A stretch of DNA of 64,000 nt from Tubulanus polymorphus. Lineage: Eukaryota > Nemertea > Palaeonemertea > Tubulaniformes > Tubulanidae. The position numbers and the translations under genes are program-made. Shown piece by piece: positions 2,298 through 41,328 of the stretch (within the stretch, counting starts at the first letter, position 1; the number at the start of each line of letters is the position of its first letter). The notes below the pieces were generated by a model. The model did not search any database. It saw only the letters and a list, made by a program, of their open reading frames with translations, and was not told where the DNA came from. Where the stretch lies: NCBI RefSeq assembly GCF_964204645.1, contig NC_134029.1:6900001-6964000 (forward strand), read 5' to 3'.

Positions 2298-2921
2298 TGG
2301 ATGGTTCATTATTTGATGTAAGTAAGCGAAACCAGGTTCGTTGACTTAGGCACCTACTGAACAGGCCTATACTCGTACCCCGTATGTTAAAATTAAGTAT
2401 ACACTGTTCATTCCTACTTATGCGTAGCTGAACATAAACGAAACTGATAATGCCAGCAGGTTTCTGGTTATTTTGTCTTAATCTACAGTATTTCTACACC
2501 CAGCCTTCCGCCAACTCCAAAAGGGCTCCTCCGTCCAGCAAAGGGATTCTACACGGGTTGTGTCATCAAAAAGAGAAGAAACAAAGCCAAGGCTAGCTTC
2601 AGTTCAAAAAGCTGTTCAAAGCCAAAAAAAGGCAAAATTTCGAAAATCTAGACTTATTTTGTTTAGTGACATTTCATAGCAACTGATATCATAATCTACG
2701 TTATGGCTTTGAAACTATAATTTATTTTAAAAAGAATTGGGGCCATGAAAAAACATTCAGAAAATTTTAGGGCCCCTCTGGCTCCGCCTCTGGTATAACA
2801 TGCACCCACTGTGACTGTCTGGGAGGCTTTCAACTGTCACTGGATTTAATCTTTATTGTTAACACATTCCTTTCCCCGGGGTAAAAATCAAGTTTCGGAA
2901 CTGAAATTTCTACTCTTTCAG

Positions 2922-3888
2922 GTACTTTGAAGTCAGCGATGAGCAAAACGAAACGATGATGATGGAACAACTTCGCGAAGGCTACAAATTACTGAATGAA
3001 TTAGAAAAACAAAAAATAACATTACAACAACAGGAATGCGTCGATGAGCCGGAGAAATGGACTCAAGTGTATCAAGCAGCGATTGAAAATAAAACGAAAT
3101 TGACTGAAGTTTTATCCGGATTTGACGAACGTTTTTTGGTCGTTACCGAAACTAAACTAAAAAAGCGTCGCAAGAAAAGGGAATTAGCGAAACGTCGACG
3201 TGAAAGAGATTATCTCGACCGCCAGGAACAGCTCAGACAGCGGGCGGAACTTCATCAGAAAATCGACCAATGGCAAGCGTCGATCAGTCACAAGATTTCC
3301 GACGCGAAACGCAAGAAAGAACTGAACGAACAGGCGGATAAAGTGCTCGCCGAGGTTCGACAGAAATTGAACGACGTCAATCGTAATATCGATTTCATAA
3401 AAACGTTGGTGAAATTGCGTAAACTTCGCAAAGAGGCGGCCGTGCGTAAGGGGTTATACACGCCGACCGACTGCGACGAGAAATTCGAATCGCGCAGCGC
3501 CGTTCTAATGTCAATGCTCGAGCTGCAAAAAAAAGACTACACCGGCGAGCAGCGCACCCTGGAGGCGATGCTCGTAAACGAACAGCTCGAAAATTTGAAA
3601 AAAGAGGAAGCCGCGGAGGAGCGTTCGCGCGTTAAAAAGGAGAAAGTCGTTCGCAGGAAGATTTTCGGTCGGTCCGATTCGCCGATGGATATGTCCGATC
3701 CGTTGTATATGTTCAAACAGTATTACTTACAAGCCGAGTTCAATCCGGCCGCGTTGGTTCAAATTCGGAAAGAATGGGATTTCTTTTTGGTGCCTCAGAA
3801 TACGCCCGGTAGCAGTACGGTTCCGATGTCGTGGGTTCTACCGGCTGAACCGTCGAGCGCCGGCTGGGCGACCGCTTTAAAGAAATGA
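2922..3888 (+). CDS. PDCD7: PDCD7, U11/U12 snRNP 59 kDa protein (last exon; 5' exons uncertain)
   Basis: The protein belongs to the U11/U12 di-snRNP of the minor spliceosome, in the nucleus. The exon follows a polypyrimidine-CAG acceptor at 2921 with one leading base and reads YFEVSDEQNET into the frame that contains the ATG at 2956, then runs about 321 codons to TGA at 3886-3888. Most of it is a charged coiled coil (K/R/E-rich, residues about 60-240). Family signatures are clear: KLRKLRKEAAVRKG in the middle and, near the C terminus, FKQYYLQAEFNPAALVQIRK, WDFFLVP and WVLP, matching vertebrate PDCD7. The proline-rich N terminus must come from upstream exons. A tentative chain is 2298-2318 (MDGSLFD, donor GTAAGT) and a Pro/Ser-rich exon from about 2486, which can be joined in phase but only with a weak donor. 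The ATG at 2956 is therefore probably internal. The gene converges on AIFM1. Confidence 0.9.
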
Positions 3889-13361: not shown

Positions 13362-13427
13362 CTAACCAAACGATATCTGGGATTGTCCGCCGGGAGGAGC
13401 CATTACCTTAGTAGATGGTTTTCCGGA
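13362..13427 (-). CDS. Jupiter terminal exon
   Basis: Acceptor TTTCAG, phase 0. Encodes SGKPSTKVMAPPGGQSQISF then G and TAG at 13364-13362. The closing PPGG-S-x-x-S-F-G box is the typical C terminus of the family and mirrors the N-terminal box (TSKVMAPPGG against STKVMAPPGG). Confidence 0.92.
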   Translation of the reverse strand, partial: SGKPSTKVMAPPGGQSQISFG

Positions 13428-16400
13428 CTGAAATACAGAAAAGAATCAATTCATTTCACTTTTATCATCGATTGAAACGTCCTTCCCCAGGCAGAGATAT
13501 AAACGTGATGGTATCGCTAGACTCAGCTACGGTACAAAACCCTGCCACACTAGACGACCGGATGTGGCACCAATCAGATTGCCCGTTGTATTATAGCTGA
13601 GGCAAATTTCACAGATAAACTGTAAATGGAAAAGGTTTGAATCCTCGCCGGTGGAGGATAAGTTTGAAAATAACTCAAAAGATTCTGGCCCCCTTTTGCA
13701 GGGGTTCGTACCAACTAAAAATGGCATCAGTACAAAGGATTACCCAGTAACTCGCCAGATACTTGAATGCGATGCAAAAACATGTACTGATTATTTTTTG
13801 ATTCAGGAGATTCGGAAAATCGAAGGTCTGAACGCATTTAAACACAGTCTGAAACATCTGCTTTTCTCTGTGAAGCGTGTGGACTGTAGATGCAGTTTTC
13901 AGTAACCATAAGGCGTGGGGGAACATCTTTTAAATGAAACAGGCAAAACATTATTATTATCGAGATCTGTACTCACCTCATGAACAGTAGTTGTATGAGT
14001 CAAGGGATTATAGGATTCTGAAAATAAGGCAATATAAAGAAATCATTGATATGCACATGATCTACAGAAAATGTATCATTATGAACATGGAGCCTCATCA
14101 TAACAAAACTGGACACGAAATCTTTGACCCAGTCATAAAACGTAACCAGCTTCAAGACTCTTATTTAGACTAAATGGACAAATTTTCCAGTATTCTGAGG
14201 TTCGCTGTAATGAAGATCCAAGGCAGTCATATATGGGACTAACAATAGAAATGAATGGGAAAACATCATATCTTGGAATTAAGGCAAAAACTGTGTAAAA
14301 CATAACTTCATTGTAAACACATTTAATTTTTAATGAATGAGAAGAAGTATTTCAGAATTCAGACCTACGAGACAATATAAATAGGATAGAGAAACTACTC
14401 AATCAATCACAGACAAGTGATAAAATACTGTACCATTCTTAAATGTTCAAGGGCAAGTTGCAAGTGCAACTTCGATCCTTGTGTGATGATTGTGATTGTG
14501 ATTGATTAGTAATAAATGAACAAAAGAGTTTCATAAGTAAACTGAAAATGAAGAAGTGTACAACACTAAATAATCTAAATATGTTTCATTTTTTATTCAG
14601 CCTCGATTAAGACATGAAAAGAAATTTTTTCAAGTAGTAGATAAGCGTTGATTGATATCATTGTGTGGAAGTCTTGAATAAATCGACAAGAAGCCCATCA
14701 ATAATTTAGTCTTATTAGTGTTTCCTCATATTTTGTTAGTAACAAGATGATTCAAGTAATAATTCAATTTGATTCATGAAATTCTAATTTGGACAGGATG
14801 TAGAACCAGAATCTAATACGTGTTATCATCTCTGATTGGTCTAGATCTGAGGAGCCTTGGTTAATTAACCAGAACAGGGTGCAGTTTTCAAGGAGTTTTA
14901 AAGGAGAAAATTTCACATTTCGAGGAAGTGTTTGTATCACGTTCGTATCCCAAAGAGCATTTTCCATTTTGAAGGGTTTTTAAGGAATCAACAAGTCGTA
15001 GGGACTCTGCAAAACTGCTGCTCTGAGATCGACAAATCAAGAGTGAGAACACGGTAAATTGACGAGGTTCTTTATTTTCACTCGATATAGATATAGTTAC
15101 ACTCGAGAACTCTGAAGTTATAGATAAATCTATCCGTAAAGTGATGCAGAAAATGAATTCGCAGTTCAACGGTGATGTGAATATAAGTGAGCAATGAATA
15201 CCGCTACCTTTCGCTTTACGATTAAAACCTCGTTCGTTATCTAAAGCGCCTACACCTACAATAGGATCGCGTTCTGTATGGAGGAAAAGTTAAGGGAAAA
15301 TCATTTAGTTTCTGCGTTATAAGTATTTCTTTGAAAGTTCTTCTAACTCCTTCGAACACACCAGTTGCTCTAACACGCAATACTGGACTTGTGAAAACGA
15401 CCCATAGACAAATTGAGTTCATAGTCTAATTCTAACTGATAGAATGGGATCCACTGTTTAGAGCGACTTTCATAGACTCAGTGAGTTGAACCACTCAGTC
15501 AGAGGCAGCTGAAATAAAACTTTCTAAATTATTCCAATATATACGAGATAATGTTTTGTACACCAGCAACCGTGGACATAAAGCCTAAAAAAGAAAAAAA
15601 TTCGATTAACTCATAGTATCTAACACTATAACCCTTAAAGGCCTACCATGTGTGTGTGTGGAGATGTGACTGTATTCCCTAATTCAACTGTGTTATTATC
15701 ATACATATCAATAAAATCTACATACACTAATACTCGTAATAATATACAAACATCTTCAGGTTTTCGAAAGAAAATACCACCACAGAAAATGAAAAGCCGT
15801 TTCCATAAAAACACAAAATAGAGAGCTAACAAATTCTATGCCTTCCAACTTTTTAACGACATGGCAATCATTTATTCATTGAAATGAAGCAGTAGAAATT
15901 GTCAGCATTATACCTTTCCATAAACCATATAAGTAGTTATACATAGGTAATTACTTTTATTACATTTTTTAAGATGAATATATATATAGGACTTCAACAT
16001 AAAACAACATAGCATACAATTTCATAATAATAGTGATTACATTTCCCAAAGCTCCGCTAACCGATCGGTGTGTATATATGGCGATTTAGAATATAAGCCC
16101 CGCTGGTGCCCGCGCTAGTTGTTTCGTGAATTCGCGCCTACCTTGCTGGCGAGGAAAAGCCTCCTCTAAGTCTCAGCGATATCGCGGTACCACTGGCATT
16201 GTCGAAAAACCTACAGCAACAAATCGTGTATTCTCGATAAGAAAAAGTGATAAGCAAACAATATTGTCACCGATACCGAAATTCTCGCCGCTATCGTCAA
16301 AGCCAAACTTCAACAATATCGCTCCGACTCATCCGAGTTCAAGAACTAAGGTATCGTAGATTTTACGAGAAGTTTTTTTTCTTGACGTGACAACCTCCAC

Positions 16401-19400
16401 ATTTAGAGAGATTTAAAAAGGTTATTTACCATCGTTTGACTTAAATTCAAGAAAACTTCTCCAGAATAAGACATTTCCCCCTAAAAATTTTTCAATGGCA
16501 AATTTCATTCAAACACTGGCGCAAATTCTCCGGCAAGTTTAGTACGAAATCGAAAACTACGTGCAATCCACAGTTACAAAGTCGAGGAAGTCAGGGGTGT
16601 GTATAGAGGATCGTTGCGTGTGGTGGTGAATATTGTAACAGTGATAGGCACAAAAAAATGAATAGAGAAATACAGCAACGAACACCACAGACAATCTCAA
16701 ATAATACCTCTTACACTATGTCTATTTAGAGCGGATGATGGACGCGGGGATTGCGAAGTATGTATGTCATATGACTGACAATCCGTGCCGGTTAACGGGT
16801 TCGACGATGATCGAGCTAAAATAACGCATTTAAAATACGATTAATTCGATACTGGTAAATAATTCGATAATTAACGCACGTCATATATCGGGAACGGGGA
16901 ACTAACGCCGCGATCGCACGGAGACGATTTGGCCCGCGCCAAGTTGCCACGGATCAGGCTGGGCTAAATTTGGCCCGTGCCTAATTAGAGAGCGCGTTCA
17001 CGCGTAAACCACTCACTCAATACTAAACAATGCTTAAACAAAGCGAAGTGAGTCACTTCCAGAACCAGTTCCAATTCACCCGCAATTATTTGCTAACATT
17101 CGGCTGGGGCCAAAAATGCTCATGCGATCGCCGCTAAAGGCACAGTTGCTCACTAGAAGAGTTCACCAGATGGCGCTAACGTGAAGTCAGGCTTAACTCC
17201 ACATTTATTATCAAGTTTATACATACAAACTCATAATGAATAAATCACAAATGAGAAATAAACTAAGGTATTCAGACAATCAGATCACATAATCTGATTA
17301 CAGTTAACTAACTTTTTATATTCAGTGGCGCCAGGTGGTTGGATAACTTGCGCTGACAGTATAGTTCCCCGTTCATCAATTTCATAATGATTTGTGTGAA
17401 GATTTAGATTATTGACATATTCATTCAATTTCATCTACCAATAGGAACCACAGCATCACAAAGACTCGAATGTCATTTACCATTTGACATCAACAGCGAG
17501 CAGGAAAGACGAAAGGATTTTGAAGATGAAGGAATAGAAACCATAGGATTCCAATACCGGAGGGTTGATGAGAAATCGCAACTCTTATAATGTACTTCAA
17601 TTTTGCAATTCAAACAATCATAATCGATACGTAAAAATATCTTTCATGAAACCAGGCCTAGGTTGAAGTTTCACAAAAGTGTAAGCTAATTAATTATTTT
17701 TTGCTAGCGATTAATTTCGAAAAATTTTAAGTTAAAATTCTCCACAAATGCCAGTCCAAGTACATAGGAATCGTGGGTAGAAAGCATATATCGGGAGAAT
17801 TCTACAAGTCCATGATTTGGAGCAAATTTGGTTGCCAGAAAACTGAGGATTGTGATACTCCCTGTGGGTAGAAGGAAAGTATACCAGCAATAGGTTATTC
17901 AGATAAAGTAGAGTGAAGACGATACAAGCAAATGTCTAAAACGCTATTTCTCACAAAATACAGAAACTATGAGAACACAAAATTTTTCACTACACATCAA
18001 AGTGCAGTGATATTAAACCACCGTCAAGTTACTGTACTGTAGTAGAAACAACACAATTCTCAGCTATAGAGTACGTAGGTGAATAAGACTGGAAACTAGT
18101 ACCACCTGATAGTGAAAACAAGCAACGCGCATGAAACGGAAAAATCTATGAATATATTTGTAGAATACCTTTTTGACGTCTGGGAGTCCGTGACCGGTTG
18201 TCATAACTGATATCAAAGGATTGGCAATTATCCCCCGTAATGGGGTTGCTAGAGCTCACTATAAAGATCAACAATTTTCCGCGATTAATAGCTCGAATAA
18301 TATTAGGAAAAAAACGAACATTTTATAAGAAAATGTTGGAAAACTTTTCATATGAATTTTGAACACGCGAATTTTATTACATTTTCGAATACAAAGGAAA
18401 ATATTGAAATAAATTTTTCATTGCCCGAATTTCAATTACAGATTTCAGATCGACTAAAGGACATCTAAACTATCACGACAGATACAGCGGTTACTACCAA
18501 GTACGACAGTAGACACATAAGTTTGTACCTTTGGACTGCTGGACGGCTACTTTAGACTTGGACTTGAATTCAGGTTTCAGCGTGTAGGCCTGGCAATTAT
18601 GGCCCGTTAACGGATTACAAACTGCGTGATAAAACAATATTTTCATCGACCGAGAGACATATTCTCTGGAGTACTCTAATGTAGAAAGCCGACAATAGAA
18701 GAATATAAACAGGGCTGCCAACCTCTAATAAGTGCATCAACAAGACACATCAAGAAATGTTCAAATCAATTGGCAATCAATGGTAATGCCATCAGTAACA
18801 CCTTTCACATTTATGAACATATGAAACATATCAAATCAGTATTTCTCGTGACAAAATACTGAGAAATCAGGGAAAGTTGGCAGCTCTGTATAAATTGAGC
18901 TCGGCAACGTCTCAATTCAGTGTTATCAAAATACATGTCATTGTTATTCTTCTATTGGAAAATTGTTTTTCGAGATAAAAAAATTCTGGACTTTTCTCTA
19001 AAACAAAACATTTACGACTACGGGTAAACGAACCCAACTAACAATTTCTTTCAGAATAAAACAAAGTCATATTTGTATGCATTCTCAAGATTACATTAAT
19101 AGGTCCGGCTTTTTTGGGGTATCATCAACAACGGAACAACGGAATAGGGAAATTGAGTTTTTCTTTTCATTTAGAAAAATTTTGAGCCCCTGATGAATTT
19201 CGATTGAACAATAATATGACGAACAAAATAACCGCTGATGAATAAAAATTAATAACAAAAAAAATGTAACAAAAAATCACTCATGTAAATGAGAATCATA
19301 ACGAATTTGATGAATAATGATGTCTACCTGAGTTAGCCTTCGGAGTTGGCTGTCTAGCTTTACTAGACGGTTCACGATGGATGTCCCAACAATCGCAGCC

Positions 19401-22400
19401 ATTCCCGGTGATCGGGTTAGAATTCGCTAAATCAAGAAATCACATGCATGATGAATGATAATAATGGCGGAAAATAATCCGAGAAAAATCCAATTAACGA
19501 ATTACTTAAACATTGAGTTGATGACAACGAAATGAAGAAACTGAATTCACTTTTAATGTATGTTGACGAAAACACTTAAAATATTGACAGAGCTTTTAGA
19601 ATATTTAATTCTAGAGGTATTTGCATTCAGGGCGAATAAAGCACATAGTCTATCTATATATTATTATGCTCACGAAAGGCAAGTAGTGAATTTACAAAAT
19701 TTTCAGAGGGAAAAACTTGATAACAATAAGCAGCAAAGTAGCAACGATTGCAAATGGTAAGCAAATATTTCAATTAACGAAACCGCATCATTATAATACA
19801 CTATAGAACCGCAACGAAACTCAAACAAACCACCGCGGAAAAATTAAGTCTCGACAACTCTTCGAAAGCGGTGAGTTCTTTTTCATAACACGGTCAGTAA
19901 ACTCAAGAGGCCCATTCCCCGTGGTACCGATCTAGGGGAACCTACGATGTCTTAGACATACACACCCGCTATTAGGTGACGATACCATTTCTAAGACAAA
20001 TTTGAAATTTGAATTAATCCGATTCCAAAATGCTCTCAAACCTTCGTATACCACCTCATCTATAAGTACCGGGTACTACTATTTTGTACTCAGGCTAAGA
20101 TAGGACTGCAACTCAGTGTAAGGCCGAGTCTACTGGACCTAGATGAACAGTCATGGCTAAGATTTAAGACCGGTCTAAGACCACCTTGGTTCTATAGCCA
20201 ATCGCAGCTAATCTAAGACCCCTTTTGGACTTAAGGCACGACTGCGCAACTGGGGCCAGTTGCTCAAAAGTTGGTTGGAGTTAACCAGTGGGTAGTTGAC
20301 ATAGTGACAATTAAAAGTTCATTGTTACTATGGTATTTATCCGCTGGTTATCTATAACCAACTTTTGAGCAACCGGCCTCTGGGCTTTTTTTATTGTTTC
20401 TCAACTGTTTCAAGAAATGACAAAAATGACGAACAGCCTTCGAAGAGTTTACTCGTTCAGTGAGAGGAAAAACAACAGCAACGTCAAGATGATTATTAAT
20501 CTACCTCGTTTCACGCCAAGCAGACGTCGTCTACTTTGTCGAGGCGGTGTATTCTCACTGATGCTACTACTCGTTCCACCCGTAATCGGATTCGAGCCGC
20601 CTGAAATAATCAATCACCGACACAAACCTCAGTGCGTGATGCATATAATTAGAAAACGTATTCGACGTTTTGCCTTTCATCTGTAACAGTCACAGTTTTA
20701 CCTTACGTGTCGCAACTCCAAAATCATGGTTTTAGACTTTCGCCTAAAATCTTAATCCAACAGTACCAGAGTTTCGCAATTCCATTTGCTTCAATATAAA
20801 TTTTAGGAAACTCCAAAATTACGATATTTTTTGTAAATCGACTAAAATTTTGCCCGCACTCAATCAAAGAAATCATGTCTCCACTTCACGACCGCAACTG
20901 GGCGCCGACCTTCATCCCTTCTTGGCACAGTGAAGACTAAAATTTGGGCCGGTCTTAAATTCTACTGGCCAAAATTAAGTCTGAAATGGCCCTCAATTAT
21001 CAGAATTATTGGTTGAAGAACAGATGAACGACAATACGTCAAATACAGCGACAAAGTGCTCTCCTTCGCTCGCCTTTGTTGTTTGCTCGGGAATTCATTT
21101 TTGGAAAATATTTGAGATCACAAAAAAGAACCTCTTTTTGCTTGAATATCAAAATACATTTAAGAAAATATTTACCATACAGATAATTAAAAAAAAGAGA
21201 GAGAGAGAAAGGTTTGAATTGATGATTTAGGATGGATTGGTACGCTATATGAAGACATTTTTAAAATAAACAAGATTAATATTATTTACAAAGACAATAT
21301 TTTTTTTTGACGAAAGGAAAAATACAATCATGACAAAACAAACATGACTAATAAAGTGAAGGGCGATTTATTGGTAGATTTTCTATCTGTTTGCCCGGGG
21401 AATCTTTATTATAACATAGATGAAGGTAAGTGATAAATAATGTGTACACGCAACAAAGATAAGTGAAGAAATCCGAAGCCTACGATTTGAAAATGAACAG
21501 GCTGATGTGAATGGATAATGGATAAAAAGCCCTTAAGATGCTCACATCAAAGCTTCGAATAAGCGATGATAACTACTCCTAGAAAGGAGGTGAATATCCT
21601 ATCTTCCGTATACCGCAACTGAATGCAATAGCCTTTTCCAGCAAAACCTTACGCCCAAACCATATGATTGAATGACATAAAAACAAATGAAAGGAACCAC
21701 ATCAAGTCTAGTAGCCACAGACTCTCACAGAAATTTTGGAAAGGTCATTATGTGGGATTGTCGAAAAATGCTGAAAAGGTTACTACTATGATCGCCTTGC
21801 TAACTTCTCACAGTACCCGTATCATATATCATGTTAACCGTAACTAAACCGCTGATGCACCCGATACCAGTAGGCCGATATGAATTTAAACCTTGGAATG
21901 CAGCGTGGAATCGAACGTCACCAGAAAGGAAACCAAGCAACACTGGCTACGCTCATGGATGAAAACATATATTAAACCATCCTCCCTCGGAATTCGAACC
22001 TTATGGCAACGCTAGGCTCAGCCATGGCACGAAACCCTGCTACACTAGACCCAGTACGAGGGTTTGCTGCAAGATAACTTGCGGCAACAATCAGATTGCC
22101 TGTTGTATAATCGCCGAGGCAAATTTCACGAATAAATCATACATGGAAAAACCCGGGCTAAAATAAAACAGGATTTCTGATCAGCTGGTGATGACAACAT
22201 CCAAGCTGCACATCTAGCTGCGCACTCGGGCTAGTGTGGCGGAATCTCATACCGTGGCGTTCCATCAGGTTCGAGGACGATATCTAACTGGCTCGTGAAT
22301 ACAGGTGGGATATATACGTATATTATGTACAATTTCTACTCCTGTCTCTACCTTGGCGCTGCAAGTCACGACACACGGGATTCCGTTTCAGACGCGTGTA

Positions 22401-25400
22401 CTCCTGACCGAGATCGCCGCGGCCGGTGATCGGATTGCGATTCTCCTGATTCGACGGGCGTCTGCTGCCCAGTCGAGTTTTCGACGGGTCTCTACGATGC
22501 GGGTACAACAGGTCGAACTCTTCGGTGCCGACGCCGGCGATCGGGTTTCGCGGCACGTTGTCTATTATCAACGGAAAGAAGAGATTTTAAAATCGGAGAG
22601 AAATCTTCGATCAAAAAGATGTCTGTCCACGTTTTAGATGAAATTTCAATCGGAAAAACAGATGAATCATGCAGGAAGTATCGTTTCGAAAAAATGTTGG
22701 ATATAGTAGACTCCGCTTGCCTCAGATCTAGTGGGACCAATTGGGGCAGTTGGAGCAGGGAATGGGAGCATGATAATTTGTGATATATTGTCCGGGGCAT
22801 GCAGGGATAATCTGAGGCAACCTTCCGGGGATTTGGATTAAAAAGAAAATTTTGTAAATCATCGAATTGTTCTTCTCTCGTCGTGGATTCGAACATTCTT
22901 GGTAAGTTTAGGAGCAATTTCGAATAGGTTGACATCAGAACTATCGAAAAAAGAAAATATGATGTACCAGGTACTAATACTGGGTATTACATTTACGGGG
23001 CCGACGCAAATGTCAACTCTTGAGCATTACGAACAAATAATCTTGAAATATTTATACGTTTATGGGCGAGTTCCAGAATATTTTTCTTTGGTTCGACTAT
23101 GGATAACTCCGGGGCAAACGGCGTCTGCTGTAGCCAAGTGATAAAGATTTCTGTTTTATGATGATATTGCTTTTTGGATAATATCATATGTCATTACCAA
23201 TCCATCTGTCGGGTGAAGTGCATTATTCGAATAAAAAAAAAAATACCAACCCCAAAACCTGACAGAGACCTTACGTTTTACCAGTAGTGCGATAAAAAAA
23301 AGCCGAAACCTGTAGAGAATTGCAATTGAACAAACCTTCGACATTCTTCAAAGCAGGGCGTCGCTTGTGCACTTTCTGTTCGTTCTCAGTACTGAAATCT
23401 CCTTTACCGACAACCGGGTCTCGTTGAGCTAGATTTATATACATACATACACAATTTAAATTCGTTTCAAAAAATTTAAAAACTCTTTGTAATTGGCGGA
23501 TACAGATTTTAGACAGAAGACGAAGAACTAGTAGATTACGAATCAGGGTTCAGAAATCGGGTGTACAAGAGATGGAGATGGAAACTTTTTAGGTGAAGGT
23601 TGGAGATATCAGGAAGGTCACCGATGAAAATAACAAATTGCCGAAGAAAATTCCGCAACCAAGAATATATAAGGATAACCGTAAACACCACGGATGATTG
23701 AACAAGCGAAATTACTGGAGAACCCTAAACTCGGTAATCAAAAAGTCGATAGTCGACTTAATTCAATTTCGACCGGCATCACGCGACGAAAAATCCAAAT
23801 TAGATCTTCTTAATTGTAAAAGTGCGCAGTTCAACAACCAAAGCGATAACCTAATATAACAGCATTTGCGTATGCAACGCGTTTCATCTTCTTAAAATCC
23901 AGAACCTAAATGCGACTATATATAAAAGTGTTTATTTCCATGCCTGCTCGAGATTGAGTTTTTCAGCTAAAAAAGATGTACCTTCTTTATGACAAAAACG
24001 CTTGCTACAACGTTTTTCCGCCGGAAAATGGCCCTTGCCTTTAATAGGGTCGCGTGTGACTGAAATTCATCATAATATATCAGTCAAAAAAAAAGAAATT
24101 ACAACGTCCTGCCTTCCCACGATGATAGAAAATCATGTACATGTACTAATCACGGGTTAAATATGTAAAGAATTTGAGATTTTTTCCAATCAAGTCGAGT
24201 AAATGAGAGCAATATATACAGTAAACTTAAGATTTCTTGTATGATAGATATGGGACAGAAAATCCTCAGCATAAATTGTTATAGCTTGGATTAAATCCAG
24301 GAGTCAGTTACTCAAACAGTTACAGTTAACCAGCGGATAGTTGACATAGTGACAATTGAAAGTTCATCGTTACTACAGTTACTACAGTATCTATCCACCG
24401 GTTGTCTGAAACAAACTCTTCGGCAACTGGCCCCAGGACCTTAAGTTTCATCATGGGTATAAGTTAGAATCGAAATCAGTTTATTTTCCAGCGATTTGAC
24501 GGATACAATCGAATTCGGATTTAACTGGAAATCTAACCCCACGGCCTATGTTGGAACTTAACGAATCCGGGCGAACTATAGTTCATAGTTAACTGTATCA
24601 TAAACCGAAGCGTGATAACGATAAAAGATAATAACAGCCCGAAACCTTCTTCTGTTCGCTGGAGACAAATTCTACCTTTTTCACCGATGAAAGAGCGACG
24701 ACACCGACGTCCGGACTCGCGTAGAGGGTCGCGCTCTCGACCGAGATCACCGACACCCATTAATGGATTACGCTGGACTGTAAGGATAGGTTACAAGCTA
24801 CCGTGTAGTACATGTTGAACAGGTGAATGGGGAGTTTAGTATAAAGATGGTCCTCGTAAAGCGGGAGAAGGCAAGGTTCTGATGACAGAAGATAGAATAA
24901 GCGCGTTTGATTGGATGGCTAGTTCGGTCCAACTGACTGTACCAGCCTTCGGAGCTGGTTATTCCAGTCTAGACCAATGGGATACCGGCACCAGCAGATG
25001 GCGCAACAAAACGCCGGGTTATTCGTTGTGAAAAACAGTTCATTTTGAATGAAATCAGAACTAAATTTACAGGCTTCCGAATACGAAAATTATCAAACAT
25101 CATTGGATGGATATAAGATTCACTTTCTCAGTCAGTGTAGTTCTGCCGGTATGCCAGTGAACATGACGGGGATACGAGGCGACTAGTCAGCTCCAGTCAG
25201 CCCAATCAAACACACCTAATATACATCCCAGAGAAAGCAGGATTCAGAGAAGCGTTAAGAAGTCAGATTTCCGAGATTTGACAAAGAACGACGGTGTGAT
25301 GTACTAAGGTGTACAGATAGACACAAACAATACAATTCTATCACAAAATTAGCAACAGTTTTCCACTATGTTTTAACACTTTCGAAGCTGTGAGATACAC

Positions 25401-28400
25401 AAGTAACGGAAGGAGTTTCAATATAGTTTAAGAGTAGTAGATACCTGATTTCGACCGCGGTGTTTTCGGTCGTTCGGGTCCTTGCCGCGCCGCGTCGTAC
25501 GAAGTCCCGAGTTCCCCGGCTCCAAGAATCGGATCGCGCACAACTGAGAAAAGTCATAGCGACCAGGAAATGAAATTCATGCGATGTTAAAAAACGGACG
25601 GCCGGTTTTATAGACTGCTATTACGTTTAACCCGGGGGCAAACTCAATTGATAATGAATTGAATTAGCCTTTGGGTTAAAGGTAATACTAGTTTATAAAA
25701 CCTGGCCCGATGATTTGAAACTTAATAAAAGACTTAACTTTAAATTATCTTTTTACATATTTTCTGAATATTAGACGGATAATTCTTTTTTTGATTTAAA
25801 ATTTTTTCATACTCATTCTTCCACCATGAAAATAACTGCACACTAGAACCCGTGAAACAATATACCAACAAGCCAAAAAAACTAAGACAGAATTTAACAC
25901 TTATAACAACACACTTGATACAAAACCATAAGTAACAAAAGGTGATATTGGATGGAAATATTACTGGGTTGTCTCAGTAATATTTCATTTGAAAAAATAA
26001 ATCCATGAAGCAAATGCTGAATTTTCTAAAACCAAATCACAAGGTTCATAGCCCCAGTGACCACGCAAACATGAAGATGACATCTTCCAAAGACTACCAG
26101 AACACAATATTATTTTGGACTTTATGGAAAGTTGTGCCAAAAAAATTGAAAATCGTGTAAATATCACTGAATTTCAACTACAATCTGAAAGCAGACCTTC
26201 ACTAGCGCGCTATGAACCCTGAACTCACCAAAGCTGCTTAATCTAAATACTGAATCATGTGAAAACACTGTAACATATCGTGTACACTATTATTATATGC
26301 ATATTATGTTTTGTATGTTTTGTACCTCGTGGTATTTTCGATTTGAACGGTGTTTGAGGAGATATACACCGGAACGGTTTAGTAGGGTGCATCTCGCCAC
26401 CGAGATCACCGGTACCGGTGACTGGATTGCGATTCACATCTAAAAACACATCGATTGCAGAATATGAGAGACATCAACGCGGATTCAAGAGTTCGAGGAG
26501 AGAGTTGTGTTCACATCGATACAAGGGACCCAAAACAAGACACCAGTGATTATACTGTAGACTTCACCTATAGTGGTAGCATCAACAAAATGTTATTGGC
26601 AAACAAATAGATTTTTGGATTTGTCTACATTGACAAACAAGAAAATCGTTTCACTATCCTATCGCTTTTAACCCAAATAGACCGGTTAGTACCACAATAG
26701 GCACTGTCTACTGTACCAGTATTTCAATGGTGTGCCGGTATCAATTTGCAGACTGGACCAACCCCTAATAAAATCTATCATCATTCGTTCAATTCTTTTA
26801 TCATAGAGGCCTCTGTGTACATAGGAACACAACAGTTGTAGCCTCAATACGAATTTCTTAACAGCCACATTTTTAACCAGATTGCATTGGTTGCATTGAT
26901 GTGAACACACCTCTGAAAATTTCAGTGTCAAAGATCGTCGTAAAAAACTACCGAAATAAGAATAAACATAAGTGCGACGAGAAAGTCAACGTTAGACCAT
27001 CGACCGTTGTTTCGAAGAATTGCTAACCCCGAAGTTCGAAAGTTCTTAATGCCCGTGGTATAAAGAGAGGAGAAAACACTCGTGAATTTGGAAACGAAAA
27101 AGTTACTTTTCCTCGAAGAGAAATGAACTGTGTATTGCCGAGATTGAGATAACGTGCTGGGAGGATGCAAAACGGTTGTTGTTTTTTTTTAAATTTCATT
27201 GAACACCACACTAATTTCTACCTTTTCTCGATTTCGGTATTTTTGAAACCCTCGGCGACCTTTGTAACGGGTCATACTCTGAACCGAGGTCGCCCAAACC
27301 GGCAAGGGGATTTCTTTCTATAAATAGCATTCAAATTATTACATTTTCATCAAATCGCGACAATATTCAAATGGTTTACGTCTCTAATTCATTTCAAAAT
27401 GTATTTATAGCAATATATCTGAAAGCTGTCTATACAATATTCGATCTCAAAGGATAACCATACTTGAGTTACTGTTTGAAAACCATTTGGCAAAGTTGAT
27501 ACCCAGCCTCCTAACGGTACTCTCCATGCAATTACTACGAGCAATTACTCAGGAGATGGGAAAGGAGAGGCTGAATCATTTGGCCCCCCCAACATAAGGA
27601 GCCAAAGGACCGGTTGGCCTCAGGGGTCTACCAGGTTCCCCGGGGGCCCAAGAGTTAGGCTTATCTTAATTGCTCGTATAGTAGACCGAGTACTTAGCTA
27701 CCAGCGCGTACAAATAACTGAATATTTGATCCACTGGGCCAAGTTTTGTACTAAGGCAGAGAAACTGGATGCCCCGCTCTATTGGTACATCACCTATGCA
27801 ACTCAAGACTAGTTAAGATTCGAACTGGGAGCATTAACTTTAGATTTCAAACTTTGCATAGATAAGCTGAGAAACTTTCTTCGTAGGAATGTTTAATATC
27901 TCGATGATAGTAGTCATACGCCCGCGCACCAACCGACTTCCGAAATAAAACTGAACATTACCTTGCACCGGGGTGACAGAACGACGACATTGCGACGTGC
28001 TGCATCTCATCATATCAGCATCGGGCTCGAACGCACCTTCCATCGTAATCGGATCTCTAATCACTATCGCGTTTATTCGAAATTTAAAAAACGAACGCGA
28101 AAAAGAAAGAGAGAGATGTTTGAAATAAAAATTCGATATGCGCTCACACCGCACGGTAATCAACTCCACGCGTGTAAAACGATATTATAACTCTTCGAGA
28201 TTTGTCGGTATAAAGCAATTTATCGGAGATTTTTGGTTCGAGTGCTGCACTCGGTACTCGATGAAAGAGGCCACCGACACACGGGAATAAATCAGTCAAC
28301 ATCGTTACATAGGCCTAGGTACGTTATAAGACTCGAAGTGGATCTCATTACCGATTTATAATACTTCATTATTGACGAGACATTAAAGTGGGCAGTTTTA

Positions 28401-31400
28401 TGTGATTAATTTTCGCATATTTCGAGAATGTATCCGTCATACTCGAAGGGGGAACTTCACTGCAATAACTTCACTCGGCCGGCAATAGAATGCTTTGTAA
28501 CTTAGTCACGATAATAATGATTTTAACACACACTCTCAGCAGCTGTTATTTCAATGTAATATGACTATTAATTTCATACGTATCGAATCGATGTTAAATT
28601 TCAATGTACAACGCCGTTTTAGAAATGGTTCATTTACTGTTCGAATTAACAACTGCAGCCCCAGCACCGTAATAAACGAGCATACCAACACCAGACTACG
28701 TAGTTAAGTATAACCGAGAAGTCAAATAATTACGCCATGTTCCAACTATAGAGACCCTTATAAAGAAGCCTGCCACCTAAATCCCTAATATGACATCATC
28801 AATTTCACCAGGGATAAAAATGAACATACTCTTTTAAATATGCTTTTGGTATTCTCACATCAAACATTCGTAAGAACAGACTTGTTTCGGTCCTTTCCTT
28901 TTAAATGGAGACCTGAATGTATGGACTTATAGCCCAGTGTGAGTGCTCCTCTTGTTCTTAATTGAAACGAACTAATTTCACACGGTTCTTAAGGATATAG
29001 TGTGAACACGGTCATGCACAGATTCGGGACTAGGCAGTGATCGTGGAAGGGTCTACGTGGTGAGGATTTGAGATTGGGAACAAATCAGCAGCGATCAATT
29101 ACTACATCTGGGCGCTGATAGAAGTTAACAAGATGTCGCCCATTCGAAAAATCAATATTCAAGTACGAAGAGTTCGATGATGACCATAAAACTCATGCAG
29201 ATTCAACAGCACTTGTAGATACTGAAATTTATAAGTTGCATTTTGCCATCTACTCAGTACTGGCGGGTCTAGAGGCCAAAATTAAATTCAGCATAAAATA
29301 GTCATAAATGTATTTTCTGGTCAGCCTTTGCACTATTAATCCGACCAAATGGCAGTCTAATATTTGCATAAAGAATGAAACCACAAAATATATTCTCATG
29401 AACTTTTCTAACAATGACTTTAATAGTTAAATGTTATGACAAAATCAGTGTTTCACTCGCATTCAACAGTTCATTGTTACGGCATAATCTTACAAGTTGT
29501 TTACCACAAAGACTTAAAAGAGTTTAATTTATCATATGGCAAGGTCCTTAAAGGATTAATTCGTGCTTCTACCATCAAGACTTACATATACGCAAAAGTA
29601 ACATACCTAGAAAAAAGGCAGGCCAGCGAAGAGCGAATGATGGATTAAGTACTACTTCTATCTACAGCGAGTGTATAAGTTCTATAGCCGGCAATGGACG
29701 CGCCTACTTCTCAGCTGAATCAGATTAACTGTCGATACATGCATGTGACAATACTATACAGTGATATCGCATCGGGAGCTGCTCAGCTCATGTTATTGAC
29801 TAATCGTTACTGTATTTCATACCTCAAACCGCTGTTGATACGTAAATAACCGAATGTGACACATGCGTCGTGTCGTGCTGCATGTGCTAGTTCGAGCTCG
29901 GACCTCCCATAAATTATCAGTCATGTAACAAGCCCCCTCCCCGGAAAAATTAGATACCGCATCGGCGTATGGCCAAAGATGGAACAATGCAAATCGGTTC
30001 ACTTGCTTTCAATTTTAATAATTTATATTAATCAATTTGATTAATTGGGCTTAACTTTCATTTTAGCCGATAAAAAAAATTTGTTCGCTGAAAAATTTTC
30101 TGCCTACTGTAATTGACAAACCCTATGTACTATCAAGATTGAGACTCAGAAGTGCTATTTTTGTACGCCGTACTATGTTTGGGGCCTTTCCCTGGATGTA
30201 AAAATCAATTTGACAGCTGTATATTGAATATTGAAAGGTCTGACTCGATGTTACGCTGATTAATTACCGTATCAATACCTCAGCATTATAACCCGGGTTA
30301 TGGTCGAAAGACTGAAGGAGCCAATGATGATAACCCGGGAGATCAGAATTGAGTCCTGGATATAGTCAAGGAAAAACAAAATAAATACGAGATTTTGACC
30401 CAACCTCTGTACGGTATACGGCTACGTAGGGTGTCATTGCATTAGACTAATACCGGTAAAAAAAATCCTTGAGCACTTAAAGAAATGTTGGATGATATAA
30501 ACATATCTTAATTCCACTTTTGAATAAATCTCTTGAAGACTGGCAGAGGGTAAGCATTCTGATTGACAATGGACTGTACAGGTCCTATACAGCGGCATCT
30601 TTTGCAAGGTGCTTTAAGTATTCTGTGTACATTATCTTCTTCTTAAGATCCAAAATCAACACCGTACCGAAATGCTAATTTAAACCCTTTGAGGAGTCCT
30701 CATCTAGTTTGGAGAGGGAAAGTGCATACGTAACACAATGACAACATTCTAAGGTCTTCATGATAGATATCACAAGAAAAAGGTGCCTTGCTTTAGCTTA
30801 CACATGCTTGTTGGGCCGCTGTTCCTCCCAATGTCAAAACTGGGATCGTCGCAGTACGAAAAAGACTTCACTATTTAAAGCGAGTAATACCGATACCAAT
30901 AAAAGCATATGGAAAGATATGAATTGAAAATGTGACGCACCAAGAATTGAAGAAATGATATGGGAAAACAAAATACTTATCACCCGAGGTATAGTCCGTG
31001 CCAAACACCATTTACACTTTTGAAAACATTTGTGCCGTACACCATCAAACAAGAAAGCAGAGATATGTGAATCGATAACAAAAAAAAACCAAAAAATAAA
31101 TTGCAATCGGTAAAATGTACCTCTCGGTTTCGAAGGAGTCCGTAATATACGAAGTTTATGGTTATAAGGAGGCCTCGTATCGACTATAAACGGGGGTGGC
31201 TCTGGTGGAGCTATATAAAAAACAATAATTTCATGCGTAATATCAAAAAGAAAAATACAAAAAAGAATTGTATTTCACAATTTCTGGCATGTTTGAATAG
31301 AAAATGTACTACTGCTAAAATCAAATCTGCTATATTTTTCTGTATATCGCATATGGGGAAAAAGCTATAAATTACAATATCGGACAAGTGGCCTGGGAAT

Positions 31401-34400
31401 AACGATTATTTGTACGCACGGTGGTACATAGGGGACGCGATTTTTAATGTACACGCGATATGAATATTTCGCAAACCGATTCGAAAATCTTTTAAATTGT
31501 GGACGATCAAAAATCTACTTCGCGTATCAACGTCGAGTGATTCCTGCGCGGAATTAAGACGGTCAGTCATGTATGAAATTAACAACATCTAAATAAGGCA
31601 ATCGATCCCTCTATCAAGAGAGAGGCGTGTACATATACATCAGTACGCTATTCGCTATTCGCAGCTGTACAATTTTCGAACGTGAAACAGCTGTTACCGG
31701 GACTTCGATCGATTCTATTATCATTCAAATATGCGTTTTACACGGAACTCCGCGCGCGTTTATAGGGAGTATACCATTGTATATAGTCATCAGCCATATC
31801 AATCTATTATAACGCCTAGACTATAGATTTCGTCGCGATAAGTTTTTTTTCCGCGACGGATTTACTCGATGCTACGAATACCCTTAGCGCGCGTATCGTA
31901 ATGACGGTAAACTCCGCCTTGTACGAATCTTATCAATAACCGGCAAAATCAACAAAACTACTTCACAAATTTGAAAATAGATTTCAGGAAGATTTCTACC
32001 ATCGGTAGCAACTTCACCGAGTCTAGGGCGGAGTTTACTGAAAATTGCTTTGAACCATAATTAAACTGTAATTTTTATGAATACAGAATATCTGAATTTT
32101 TTTTGTTCGGAAACTAAATGTTTCTTACATGCTACTACGCTATATTACGTACGGCAATTTCATATCTTCACAGATATTTTCCTGACCTCACTTTGTCAGA
32201 CATATTTAAATGACTAGAACCCCTGATAATCGAATTATTTCCTGATTTTCATGTCGACTTTCCGAGCGACAGATTGTTAAAGGACCCACGCGCTGACCGA
32301 CGTACATATTAAACATACCTTCATCGTCGAGATAACCGCCGGTCAAATCCTCAATACTGAACGCGTAACTACCGGGAAAGTGGTGCGGCGACGGTGGACT
32401 ACGACTCCTGACTCCGGGACTCTGGCGTATGACCGCCGGCGGGGGCGGCGAGTGATGCCGGTGAGGCTCGTGTTGCGACGGTATCAGCAACGGCACTTTA
32501 TCCGGTTGGTACTGCGCGCCGTGAACCGGGCAATACACTATACCATTCACCGGCCCGTACATGAGGCCTTTCGGAATCGGGATATTTTTTTTCGTCGTAT
32601 TCTGTTTTTTCTCTTGAAGGAAACAAACACAGCAAATCAAAAATGATAATACAATTGTCTGTAAGAAAAGGCAAAAATATGTTGAATCTGTTGGAAACAA
32701 AAATCCTAATATCAATTCGACCTTACCTACTGAGGTTGTAAAGTAACTATCTACCGGACAAGAGGCATTACAAGGAAACAAATAATGAAAAAGCAATTAT
32801 ATGCATTTTATGATCTATAGGGCGTGGGCCCGTATGACTCAAAGTACATACTATGCACAGCAAATTGACAGATTTCCGTGGATAACATCCAGACCCAGTC
32901 GAGGAAAAACTTGATAAAATACGTACGAAAACAGCTGTTGACACAATTGTCAGTTTAATGCAAAGCCTTTTGTTTCAAAATAGAGCTGGGCTTGCTAGGT
33001 ACATGTATGAAAGATAGAATCTAAAGACCATGTCACGATCTCTACGTAACTCACTTTTTGGATGTCCGTGCTGATGCATGTTGACTAAATTCCGCGAAAA
33101 CGATAACAGAAATACAAAACGGAGAACGCGCTCGTAAACGATGCGGACAATCCGTGAATGAAACGGGGAAATGTAATATCCGAAATATACTCAAAAGAAC
33201 GCTACGATTCAGACAAAAATCCAGGACGGTGTGACACAACGAACACTGCTGGGATGACAGTTGGTCACCGTCGTTTGAAATGATAATAATATTAATCTGG
33301 CTTGTGTCACGTTAGTCACAGCTGCCCCCTCTCGTAGCGACAACGAGCGCAACATAGAATATCTATATTGCACAGTTTCTCACTACCATCGACGCGAGCA
33401 GCATCGCTACAAAGTCAATAATGCACCTGGCATGATTATTGACATAAAAAAGGAATATCTTTAAAAATATGTCATAGCGTTCGAAAGAAAATGTTTGAAA
33501 ACCTTTTGGGGCCCAGTCGTTGAAAGGTTACTCCAGTCAGTAACCTGTCTGTGGTTTAGTTTCATGATCTGATATTTTTTCACAAACCAGTCAGGAATGT
33601 TGCTTAATCGCTGAAAGCATTCATAAAATCGCGCTTGTTGGTGAATCAAGCCATTAATTGCCAACTGAAGTCTGATAGAAAGTATGTTTTTGAAGCGTTA
33701 CTTTTTTCAACGGTGTTTCAGCCCTCGGTATAAACCCATCCGAACGCTTACCAAAACGATAAGGTAACTAACTTATTCATGTATGGTTAAGACCTAGTCG
33801 TAAAGTCGCTAGAAAGAGATCTGAAATGGAACCAGATCCCAAATCTTCGGGACCAACTGAAATCATATTTGACGACGCGCCTGCTGCAAAATAACAAAAA
33901 CATCATTAAACACCCTTTACGCTGGCGGATCCGTCCATACCTTTGTCGCATTTACAAATCTTCGGATAATCGTGTCTGTATCGGCGAACGAATTTGAATA
34001 ACATGAAGAAGAGAACACGACACGGAAGAGTCCAGCATTTGCACGAAAATCACACCACCGAATAGCGATCGGAGATTTATGTAAACACACCGGCGTACAG
34101 CGACCGTGTAGAGAACGTGCACACAATACTACAGGTAAATTCATTAATATGCTATTAATTCGACGTCGAATTCGACTGAATTGTAACAGGCTGCGCGATC
34201 GAGAGACTCGATTATATTTAAAGCCATGTATTGCACTATCTCTTTTTATGGTTGAAATATTATAAATGCAAAAACAACGCGTTCAAACCATCAACATTCT
34301 AAATATGCGGGCACAATTTACAAAAAGATAAAGTCATTTAGCGTCCGCGGAACCAGTTGATTCGCGCATTATCTCGCAGTAAAAGGGTCGATTCATCGGA

Positions 34401-39265: not shown

Positions 39266-41328
39266 TGGTATTTGCTCAGACATTTCGTGTAAGTAGTTTG
39301 TGTTTTAGAACTACATGATGCAGTACGATCATCGTGTCCACTTGCGCTCCACGCTTCAATGTGACCAGCTGTCAAAACAAACCTCAAATGAAACTCTTTC
39401 TATATCTGGGGTAACGGTGGCTGGCCCCTCACACACGATAGCTCTGACGTGAAAGGATAATTTTGGTGAGAAGTGAATCGATTTATCATATAGCCCCTAG
39501 CCCATGAATGATACATTATTCGGGTTCAAGCGCCCCTTTTGGGTCACAAACTAATAAAAATAACATCCACCACAAGTGTCATTCCATTGTAGTATTGACG
39601 TACTAGTAGGCCTACTGTGTAAGTTTTAAGCGGGTGTAGACTAAGATTTCTTTTTATCATTTGCAACTTTTGACTTGTTAAAATGGCTGTCTGTTCACTT
39701 GTATTATTATAGGCTTACTAGTAGGCTGCTAGACGCTTTTTGTGGCCGAATCGCACCACCTACACCTGCCATTTTTGAATTGTGCAGAATTTTTATCTCG
39801 GTTGTCTGTTAGGCTATAGGCCGAATTTATCGTTAGAAGCAGTACGGCAGGTAGTCTGAATACCAGTCGTTGTTACGGTTCCGTACAACAGTTGTTTCAG
39901 GAACAACGGCTAGGTACTAGACTACTGCTGATCTTGTAGTAGTCAGTTAGGCCTACCTGTCTATGGTTGAGTTTAGTTTCCCGATCGGATATTTTCAAGC
40001 ACATCTGATTATAAAAGCTTACCACCAACCATTCTAACTAATTACCCCATAGGCTAAGCAACATTTTTGGAGGTATGGTGTCGGCTAAGGGTACGTGTTG
40101 GACTGAAACCTGAAATAAATTGTTTTTCTTATTGCACTTTCATCCTTTGGTGATAAATAATCCTAGTTATTTTTAACATCAGTTGCAGTCTTATCATTAG
40201 ATGCCATTCTGACGTAAATCAAAAAATATCAGCTATGAAGTATATTATTATTCTTTCAACGTAAGCTTATACGTATTACTTCATGCTTATTTTCTACTCA
40301 CTCAGATATTTACTTGATTTACTCCCTTAGGCCTATTTATCCCCTGTTGTTAGCTATTCCTAATATCTATTTCCACTTAGCCTTTTGCTTGAGAGAATGT
40401 CAGGTGAACTTGCTCAGTCAGTTTTCAGCCCACTTGAGACCCAGCGGGATATTGTGGTTCACTTTGTTCATTTTTCCTTTCATCCATCCATCCATGGACG
40501 GAATCTATTTTGGGCAGTTTTGAAGATGCTTCTATTACAGACTGTCTTGATTTTTGGTTTATAATGTATCTACCCAAGACACGTCTTCAGCCCAAAAACT
40601 GGTTTGGTCAGACTGGTGGCCATTGTCATTCGCCGAAATCAGCATTTTTACAGCATTTTTATGGGAAATTTTGAAGATGCTTTGATCATTTATCTTGATC
40701 ATTCAAATATTTGTGTCCTCAAGGGCCCATCAGCATAAGAAAAAGTGGATCAATCCTGCAACCTTTTTTGTTCCTAAAAAGGTCACTTTTGGCCTGAATT
40801 CTGAGACCTGTAGCTTCCTACTGGTTTGCCATTTTTCATTGAAATTTGTGATGTGTATTCCTTGGAAAGATACAGGTTTTGACTTATAGTCTTGATATTT
40901 GATTATTATTAGCACTGTCATAGGATACATCTCAATATCCAAAACGACCTCCAAAATAAAGCAATTTTTCTTTTCGAATTTGCCTCCCCAATCACTTAAT
41001 TAGTAATGAATTCAATGTCTGAAGAACAAAAACAAATTATCTTTTTTGAAACCTAATCATAGAAAAAATAGGTAATGATTATGTCACTTACATCAATGTT
41101 GTCATGTTGCTAAAAACATAAGCGTTCCCGCAATCATTAGGTTTTTCTGGTCGTTTATTTTACAAAATCAAGGTTGAACGATTAATTTGAGGCTGGGTGT
41201 GGCTATGATTAATCGTACATACATAGTTACCATGGTTGCGCCATTATATTTCATTTGAAGTGCATTCGTACGGTTTTGTTTCAATAGGTTGTTATGGTTC
41301 GTCGGACAGCTTCGATGTCGATGAAACA
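38940..41328. other. Intergenic, POP5 to bHLH-PAS
   Basis: No supported exon. Contains the (TAG)n microsatellite at 39169-39266 and several TAGGCCTA words. The presumed 5' flank of the bHLH-PAS gene is at the right end. Confidence 0.5.
39169..39266 (+). repeat. (GTA)n trinucleotide microsatellite
   Basis: About 33 copies of GTA/TAG interrupted once by GTGGTAGTGGTAG in the middle. Long homopolymeric reading frames over it (poly-Thr, poly-Leu) are artefacts. Confidence 0.97.

Follow-up and report, generated by a model that had tools for sequence, protein, structure and literature searches.

The locus analysed here raises the question of how a small protein of the Jupiter/JPT type comes to contain sixteen consecutive symmetric exons, and whether these exons are chosen during splicing or are always included. 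The window is a stretch of 64,000 nucleotides from the nemertean Tubulanus polymorphus (GCF_964204645.1, contig NC_134029.1, positions 6,900,001 to 6,964,000), part of a 268-Mb assembly of 77 contigs, and the gene is read from its minus strand. The anatomy described below suggests one JPT-like gene with a middle enlarged by tandem-duplicated symmetric exons; these array exons are probably cassettes that would tune a microtubule-associated protein.

Gene frame and exon array

The gene was rebuilt exon by exon through its acceptor AG and donor GT signals and occupies positions 13362-36748 of the minus strand with 20 exons (E1-E20). The 16 array exons, E3-E18 (32612..15208), lie between the N-terminal exons E1-E2 (36748-36329) and the C-terminal exons E19-E20 (14017-13362). 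The range 15208..32612 given in the original prediction thus fits the array exons, but not the gene, which extends beyond it on both sides. All 16 have a length divisible by three, an AG acceptor and a GT donor, and all are phase 1-1, starting with two bases of a split codon and ending with one, a G. Such symmetry would let any subset of the array exons be spliced in frame, as had been predicted; 65,536 is a mere count of these subsets. The rebuild also recovered the two predicted sizes, 130 residues for the form without array exons and 740 for the full form (721 from the ATG of E2 plus 19 from E1 and its junction), and the predicted GNN junction codons, with ANN at the first junction, where E2 ends in A. 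The final G is mostly the splice consensus at -1, so the freedom from junction stops is a by-product.

The original prediction had one motif spread by tandem exon duplication. Of the sixteen exons, 14 carry [ND]P[ILVM]x[GM], in 15 copies (E12 has two, and in E5 an M replaces the last G), with the array consensus RNPITGxG; E3 and E4 are without it. An APPGG motif is found at both gene ends, in E2 and E20, both of them framework exons. The exons are as follows, a slash marking the exon end in donor sequences.

36696..36748, minus: E1, first coding exon, MTSTGTNQGYDCGRPTS plus two bases; donor TAA/GTAAGA, likeness to the JPT1 start
36329..36561, minus: E2, N-terminal exon with VMAPPGGRTSINLFGG, phase 1 end with A; donor CGA/GTAAGT, one genome match
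32319..32612, minus: E3, no motif, 294 nt, proline/histidine-rich, contains CPVHG; AAG acceptor, codon score 33.4, no Pfam match
31121..31210, minus: E4, no motif, 90 nt; weak codon score
27962..28063, minus: E5, motif RDPITMEG, 102 nt; exon rebuild and motif/splice scan
27222..27317, minus: E6, motif RNPLAGLGDLG, 96 nt; exon rebuild, motif/splice scan and DNA repeat comparison
26326..26439, minus: E7, motif RNPVTGTGDLG, 114 nt; exon rebuild, motif/splice scan and DNA repeat comparison
25445..25543, minus: E8, motif RDPILGAGELG, 99 nt; exon rebuild and motif/splice scan
24676..24777, minus: E9, motif RNPLMGVGDLG, 102 nt; exon rebuild, motif/splice scan and DNA repeat comparison
23982..24059, minus: E10, motif RDPIKGKGHF, 78 nt; exon rebuild and motif/splice scan
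23336..23428, minus: E11, motif RDPVVGKGDF, 93 nt; motif/splice scan, donor GTTTGT with G at +5
22352..22561, minus: E12, two motif units RNPIAGVG and RNPITGRGDLG, 210 nt; exon rebuild and motif/splice scan
20505..20600, minus: E13, motif SNPITGG, 96 nt; exon rebuild and motif/splice scan
19328..19426, minus: E14, motif SNPITGNGC, 99 nt; exon rebuild and motif/splice scan
18529..18621, minus: E15, motif CNPLTGHNCQ, 93 nt; exon rebuild and motif/splice scan
18169..18258, minus: E16, motif SNPITGDNCQS, 90 nt; motif/splice scan, poor codon score
16708..16815, minus: E17, motif SNPLTGTDCQS, 108 nt; motif/splice scan, poor codon score
15208..15273, minus: E18, motif RDPIVGVG, 66 nt; exon rebuild and motif/splice scan
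13977..14017, minus: E19, first C-terminal exon, SYNPLTHTTTVHE, phase 1 in and 0 out; donor GAG/GTGAGT
13362..13427, minus: E20, last exon, SGKPSTKVMAPPGGQSQISFG then stop; exon rebuild

E1 is one of six candidates if a GTRAG donor is required, and one of 15 if every GT donor as far as position 40000 is admitted; it was picked as the candidate nearest E2 and for its resemblance to the start of JPT1. E3 is unlike the other array exons, with 98 residues comprising GLMYGPVNGIVYCPVHG and then a histidine/proline-rich tail; it has no Pfam match, and the genome search returned, beyond E3 itself, only two weak overlapping matches (E 0.7 and 0.9). The two motif units of E12, with no intron between them, may have been fused when an intron was lost, or one may be a duplicate that was never split off.

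The array was compared with chance by counting units made of the motif, a nearby in-phase AG acceptor and an in-phase GGT donor. There are 14 such units on the minus strand of 13-33 kb, compared with a mean of 0.11 and a maximum of 2 in 100 dinucleotide shuffles; E12 is counted there through an internal donor, its chosen donor lying beyond the reach of the scan. No unit was found on the plus strand of 13-33 kb or on either strand of 33-37 kb, and a single one was found on the two strands of 0-13 and 37-64 kb together. From 40 nt into the exon to the first stop, 14 of the 16 array exons have a single phase-1 AG/GT donor, and E9 and E18 have one extra each.

The exons were scored with the codon usage of pieces of PRPF8, Brr2 and PDCD7. 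The claimed frame came top of six in 10 of the 16 array exons and was not the best-scoring one in E4, E6, E8, E14, E16 and E17. Against random 96-mers taken from introns, 14 exons scored above the 95% point and E16 and E17 below it; this null is generous, since its segments did not have to be open. The test has low power on short exons: E20, expected to be coding if the gene is JPT-like, fails as well. These shortfalls are what would be expected if the array had partly decayed, many copies being dead exons that are no longer spliced. Against such decay, all 16 exons are open with intact splice sites, the motif is kept and change falls mainly at the third codon position, and we consider this explanation extremely unlikely.

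One gene, its family and the origin of the array

For comparison, introns of three genes of the same genome were used as controls, with rows counted by hand: 16/16 were kept from PRPF8, 10/13 from Brr2 and 5/6 from the ryanodine receptor (RyR). The introns dropped were those at Brr2 residues 715, 721 and 726, due to alignment breakdown, and one of RyR in a gapped stretch; the kept PRPF8 intron at residue 198 has a one-residue gap at its boundary. Phase 1 is found in each of the 17 introns between E2 and E19, against 5 of the 31 control introns kept. In addition, a related NPLT is present in E19 at 8 nt from the acceptor, which is the offset seen most often in the array. Together, the phase-1 introns and the NPLT of E19 favour one gene. 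The middle exons could instead belong to one or more separate genes, between the parts of a small JPT gene or within it, and E3 and E4 do differ from the other array exons, while the longest intron is the one between E2 and E3 (3716 nt). Given the phases, the NPLT in E19 and the complete lack of antisense motif units in 13-33 kb, this is improbable. The predicted single gene with JPT-like ends enclosing the sixteen exons is also supported by the match of E1 and E2 to JPT1 (see below) and by the N-terminal exon, for which no second copy was detected in the genome at E <= 0.001. Of 20 candidates scored across the 268-Mb genome, none proved to be a second array.

The family link was examined with a human JPT1 sequence. 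E1 and E2 match it collinearly from residue 1, with 34/92 residues identical (E 5e-8, a value for a single comparison). E20 ends in VMAPPGGQSQISFG then stop and, by inspection, its PPGG stands a few residues before the C-terminus (APPGGQSQISFG then stop), as in JPT1; BLAST left both C-termini unaligned and matched the C-terminal PPGG of JPT1 to E2 instead (E 0.058). The Pfam JUPITER profile, against which this JPT1 sequence scores 33.6 bits (cut-off 27), gave no match to the assembled proteins. A search of the genome with the same profile gave no match either, but its controls gave none. Because of this mismatch, and with the family link being a pairwise match to a human sequence, we file the gene as JPT-like, short of an assignment to the JPT family. 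If the gene were not a relative of JPT at all, its PPGG ends would be convergent low-complexity sequence, as the unmatched profile might suggest; the collinear match from the first residue and the PPGG near the C-terminus of both proteins make this very unlikely.

Other candidate relationships were dismissed. Pfam matches of the assembled proteins to Kelch_6, Nucleoporin_FG and Zn_ribbon_TiaS were all below the family cut-offs and are attributed to chance, as are seven matches over a short stretch in a PDB profile search with the repeat alignment (E 0.019 to 0.23, the best being apolipoprotein(a)/plasminogen). A PDB search with the repeat of E7 alone gave a coat protein at E 0.49, and one with JPT1 gave no match up to E 10. 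That the array motif is a copy of the JPT1 NPPGGK, its best window in JPT1, is speculation, since half of the shuffles do as well. A viral contig collection, which by its description does not hold animal genomes, contained no relative (17 pattern matches). The literature matches listed included nothing comparable to this JPT array or its motif, as far as titles and abstract openings tell. Searches for the families of molluscan haemocyanin and annelid linker were blank, as were their controls, and COX1 was not matched in the assembly.

Several observations bear on the history of the array. Similarity beyond the motif declines with distance along it (Spearman -0.34, permutation p 0.0054), as fits tandem exon duplication. 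Two local subfamilies can be distinguished, a GDLG-type (E6-E9 and E12) and a CQS-type (E14-E17), and a DNA repeat family, D1, comprises a 48-nt stretch common to four GDLG exons with 63-73% identity to the reference copy. Among 525 codon pairs of the five-codon motif, the copies differ 183, 68 and 338 times at codon positions 1, 2 and 3, a bias that is in part due to the units having been picked by motif. Homologous, equal-phase neighbours, the mark of tandem exon duplication, were identified for the 14 motif exons, that is, excluding E3 and E4. These data point to an old tandem duplication with selection on the protein; the predicted spread of the motif by this route agrees with the decay over distance, with D1 in four exons and with the related NPLT in E19. 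The exon anatomy of the original prediction is confirmed and its interpretation supported in part; the combinatorial set of microtubule-binding isoforms stays a proposal.

Dispersed repeats were also seen in the introns of the gene. A palindromic element resembling a miniature inverted-repeat transposable element, its 61-nt arms separated by 3 nt, and a copy related to it lie at 20254-20378 and 24319-24436, in the introns E13-E14 and E9-E10. A second repeat (83%) is present at 13563-13633 and 22080-22150, in the introns E19-E20 and E12-E13.

Donor class of the array exons and proposed working

All 16 chosen array donors are of the form AG//GUNNN and none is GURAG; G occupies +5 in only 2/16. 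Among the control introns, GURAG donors make up 9/16 in PRPF8, 7/10 in Brr2 and 2/5 in RyR, in total 18/31 (p 7e-5 against 0/16). The difference persists among AG-ending donors (0/16 against 8/19, p 0.004), with all control rows kept (19/35, p 1e-4) and if E17 is assigned its GURAG donor (p 6e-4), although all these p values overstate the evidence for regulation because the array copies are not independent. The framework donors E1, E2 and E19 are GURAG, that of E1 with weaker support because this exon was first sought with a GTRAG condition, and with any GT only afterwards. Three array exons have unchosen GURAG sites nearby: E11 at 154 nt in its frame, E13 at 42 nt and E17 at 101 nt. E17 has two donors of opposite class 7 nt apart, AGT/GTAAGA, which breaks the frame to E18, and GAG/GTATTA, which keeps it.

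The uniform donor class fits coordinately regulated cassettes, without proving alternative splicing. It is possible, if considerably less probable, that the 16 exons are constitutive and form a fixed 740-residue repeat protein, their symmetry being a relic of which tandem duplications survived. Tandem duplication of a symmetric exon would yield the same pattern without splicing control, and the intronic side of the donors has 13 different hexamers among 16, which means that the sites have diverged since duplication, as under weak constraint. On the other side stand the contrast in GURAG donors between array and controls and the size of the two ends, which alone are already comparable to JPT1 (130 residues against 154).

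Several points weigh against the cassette reading of a JPT-like gene. The uniform donors could have been inherited from the founding exon. The control introns (78-625 nt) are mostly shorter than the introns downstream of array exons (270-3057 nt). Among the k-mers in the intronic flanks of the array exons, none is clearly prominent: the lowest 6-mer p values, 1.3e-5 among 4096 6-mers, rest on 2/16 flanks, and TTTTGA, the next upstream 6-mer, reaches p 1e-4 in 6/16 flanks, neither being taken as signal, while TGCATG occurs in 0/16 downstream and 1/16 upstream flanks. The likeness of the array motif to the C-terminal NPPGG of JPT1 is not significant, 50% of shuffles reaching the score. To these are added the frames of six exons that do not score best, the lack of the motif in E3 and E4 and the unmatched JUPITER profile.

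Under the cassette reading, a founding phase 1-1 exon with an [ND]P[ILV]xG motif would have been duplicated repeatedly in tandem between two APPGG ends. The array exons would act as cassettes through their common AG//GUNNN donors, as opposed to the GURAG donors of the framework, and splicing conditions that favour one donor class could tip its output towards short or towards long forms. From 0 to 15 motif copies would thereby be added between the APPGG ends, tuning avidity or reach if the protein behaves like its family. With a pI of 10.1 the array part of the protein is basic, and by the charge-hydropathy boundary it is predicted to be disordered (mean hydropathy 0.383, boundary 0.44). Since both PPGG motifs are on framework exons with the array between them, the array could change the reach of the anchors or add contacts; that its motif is itself a tubulin contact is speculation. 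A more elaborate version, which we regard as unlikely, is a luminal microtubule binder anchored by the APPGG motifs of E2 and E20, between which splicing would select as many as 15 further tubulin-contacting motifs; its valency and length would be set by each cell, and the array exons, with AG//GUNNN donors against the GURAG donors of E1, E2 and E19, would be switched together by donor class.

If the gene is expressed as proposed, a family of small proteins would gain a modular, splice-tuned version and, with it, a natural series for relating motif number to microtubule binding. The uniform donor class would also make it possible to test directly whether the class of the 5' splice site is by itself enough to coordinate a large cassette array.

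Two observations concern the genes used above for scoring and as controls. PDCD7, a minor-spliceosome protein, is encoded by a single open frame at 2905-3888 of the plus strand of the window (Pfam PF16021, E 8e-68). Immediately after the N-terminal exons of PRPF8, perhaps inside an intron of that gene, come long open frames resembling a retroelement (contig C2:22671000-22675600).

Comparison with known systems

JPT proteins have about 150-200 residues, the figure used in the original prediction, compared with 130 in the empty form and 740 in the full form here. With JPT1/HN1, JPT2/HN1L and Drosophila Jupiter (PF17054) the gene shares an N-terminal exon pair with MT..T..G....S-[RK]-V-x-x-PPGG and a PPGG near the C-terminus; it differs in its 16 extra symmetric exons, set against the 154 residues of JPT1, and in leaving the Pfam profile unmatched. 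Jupiter is reported as a microtubule binder in the consulted part of PMC3375142.

The donors of the array resemble the AG//GUNNN class of PMC11732430, all 16 being AG//GU without GURAG. According to the parts of that review consulted, loss of LUC7L/LUC7L2 and loss of LUC7L3 have different effects on the two 5' splice-site classes; these parts treat the class genome-wide and describe no array of a single class. The consulted parts of work on tandem exon duplication and arrays of mutually exclusive exons (PMC9013439, PMC6071210) offer a likeness in equal-phase duplicated exons within one gene. Mutual exclusion is not needed here to keep the frame, because all array exon lengths are multiples of three. 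Six inverted-repeat pairs of at least 24 nt were found, none recurring along the array, a search that could miss shorter or diverged selectors.

Finally, the basic repeats of Tau and MAP2, about 31 residues long, are encoded by separate exons, so the repeat number depends on which of these are included. The array would work in an analogous way, with basic repeats carried by exons, and no membership is claimed: its consensus RNPITGxG has no PGGG-type motif, and the exons are many more. Taken as a whole, the array is an uncommon enlargement of a gene that belongs to a known family or stands next to one, and the process behind it is a known one.

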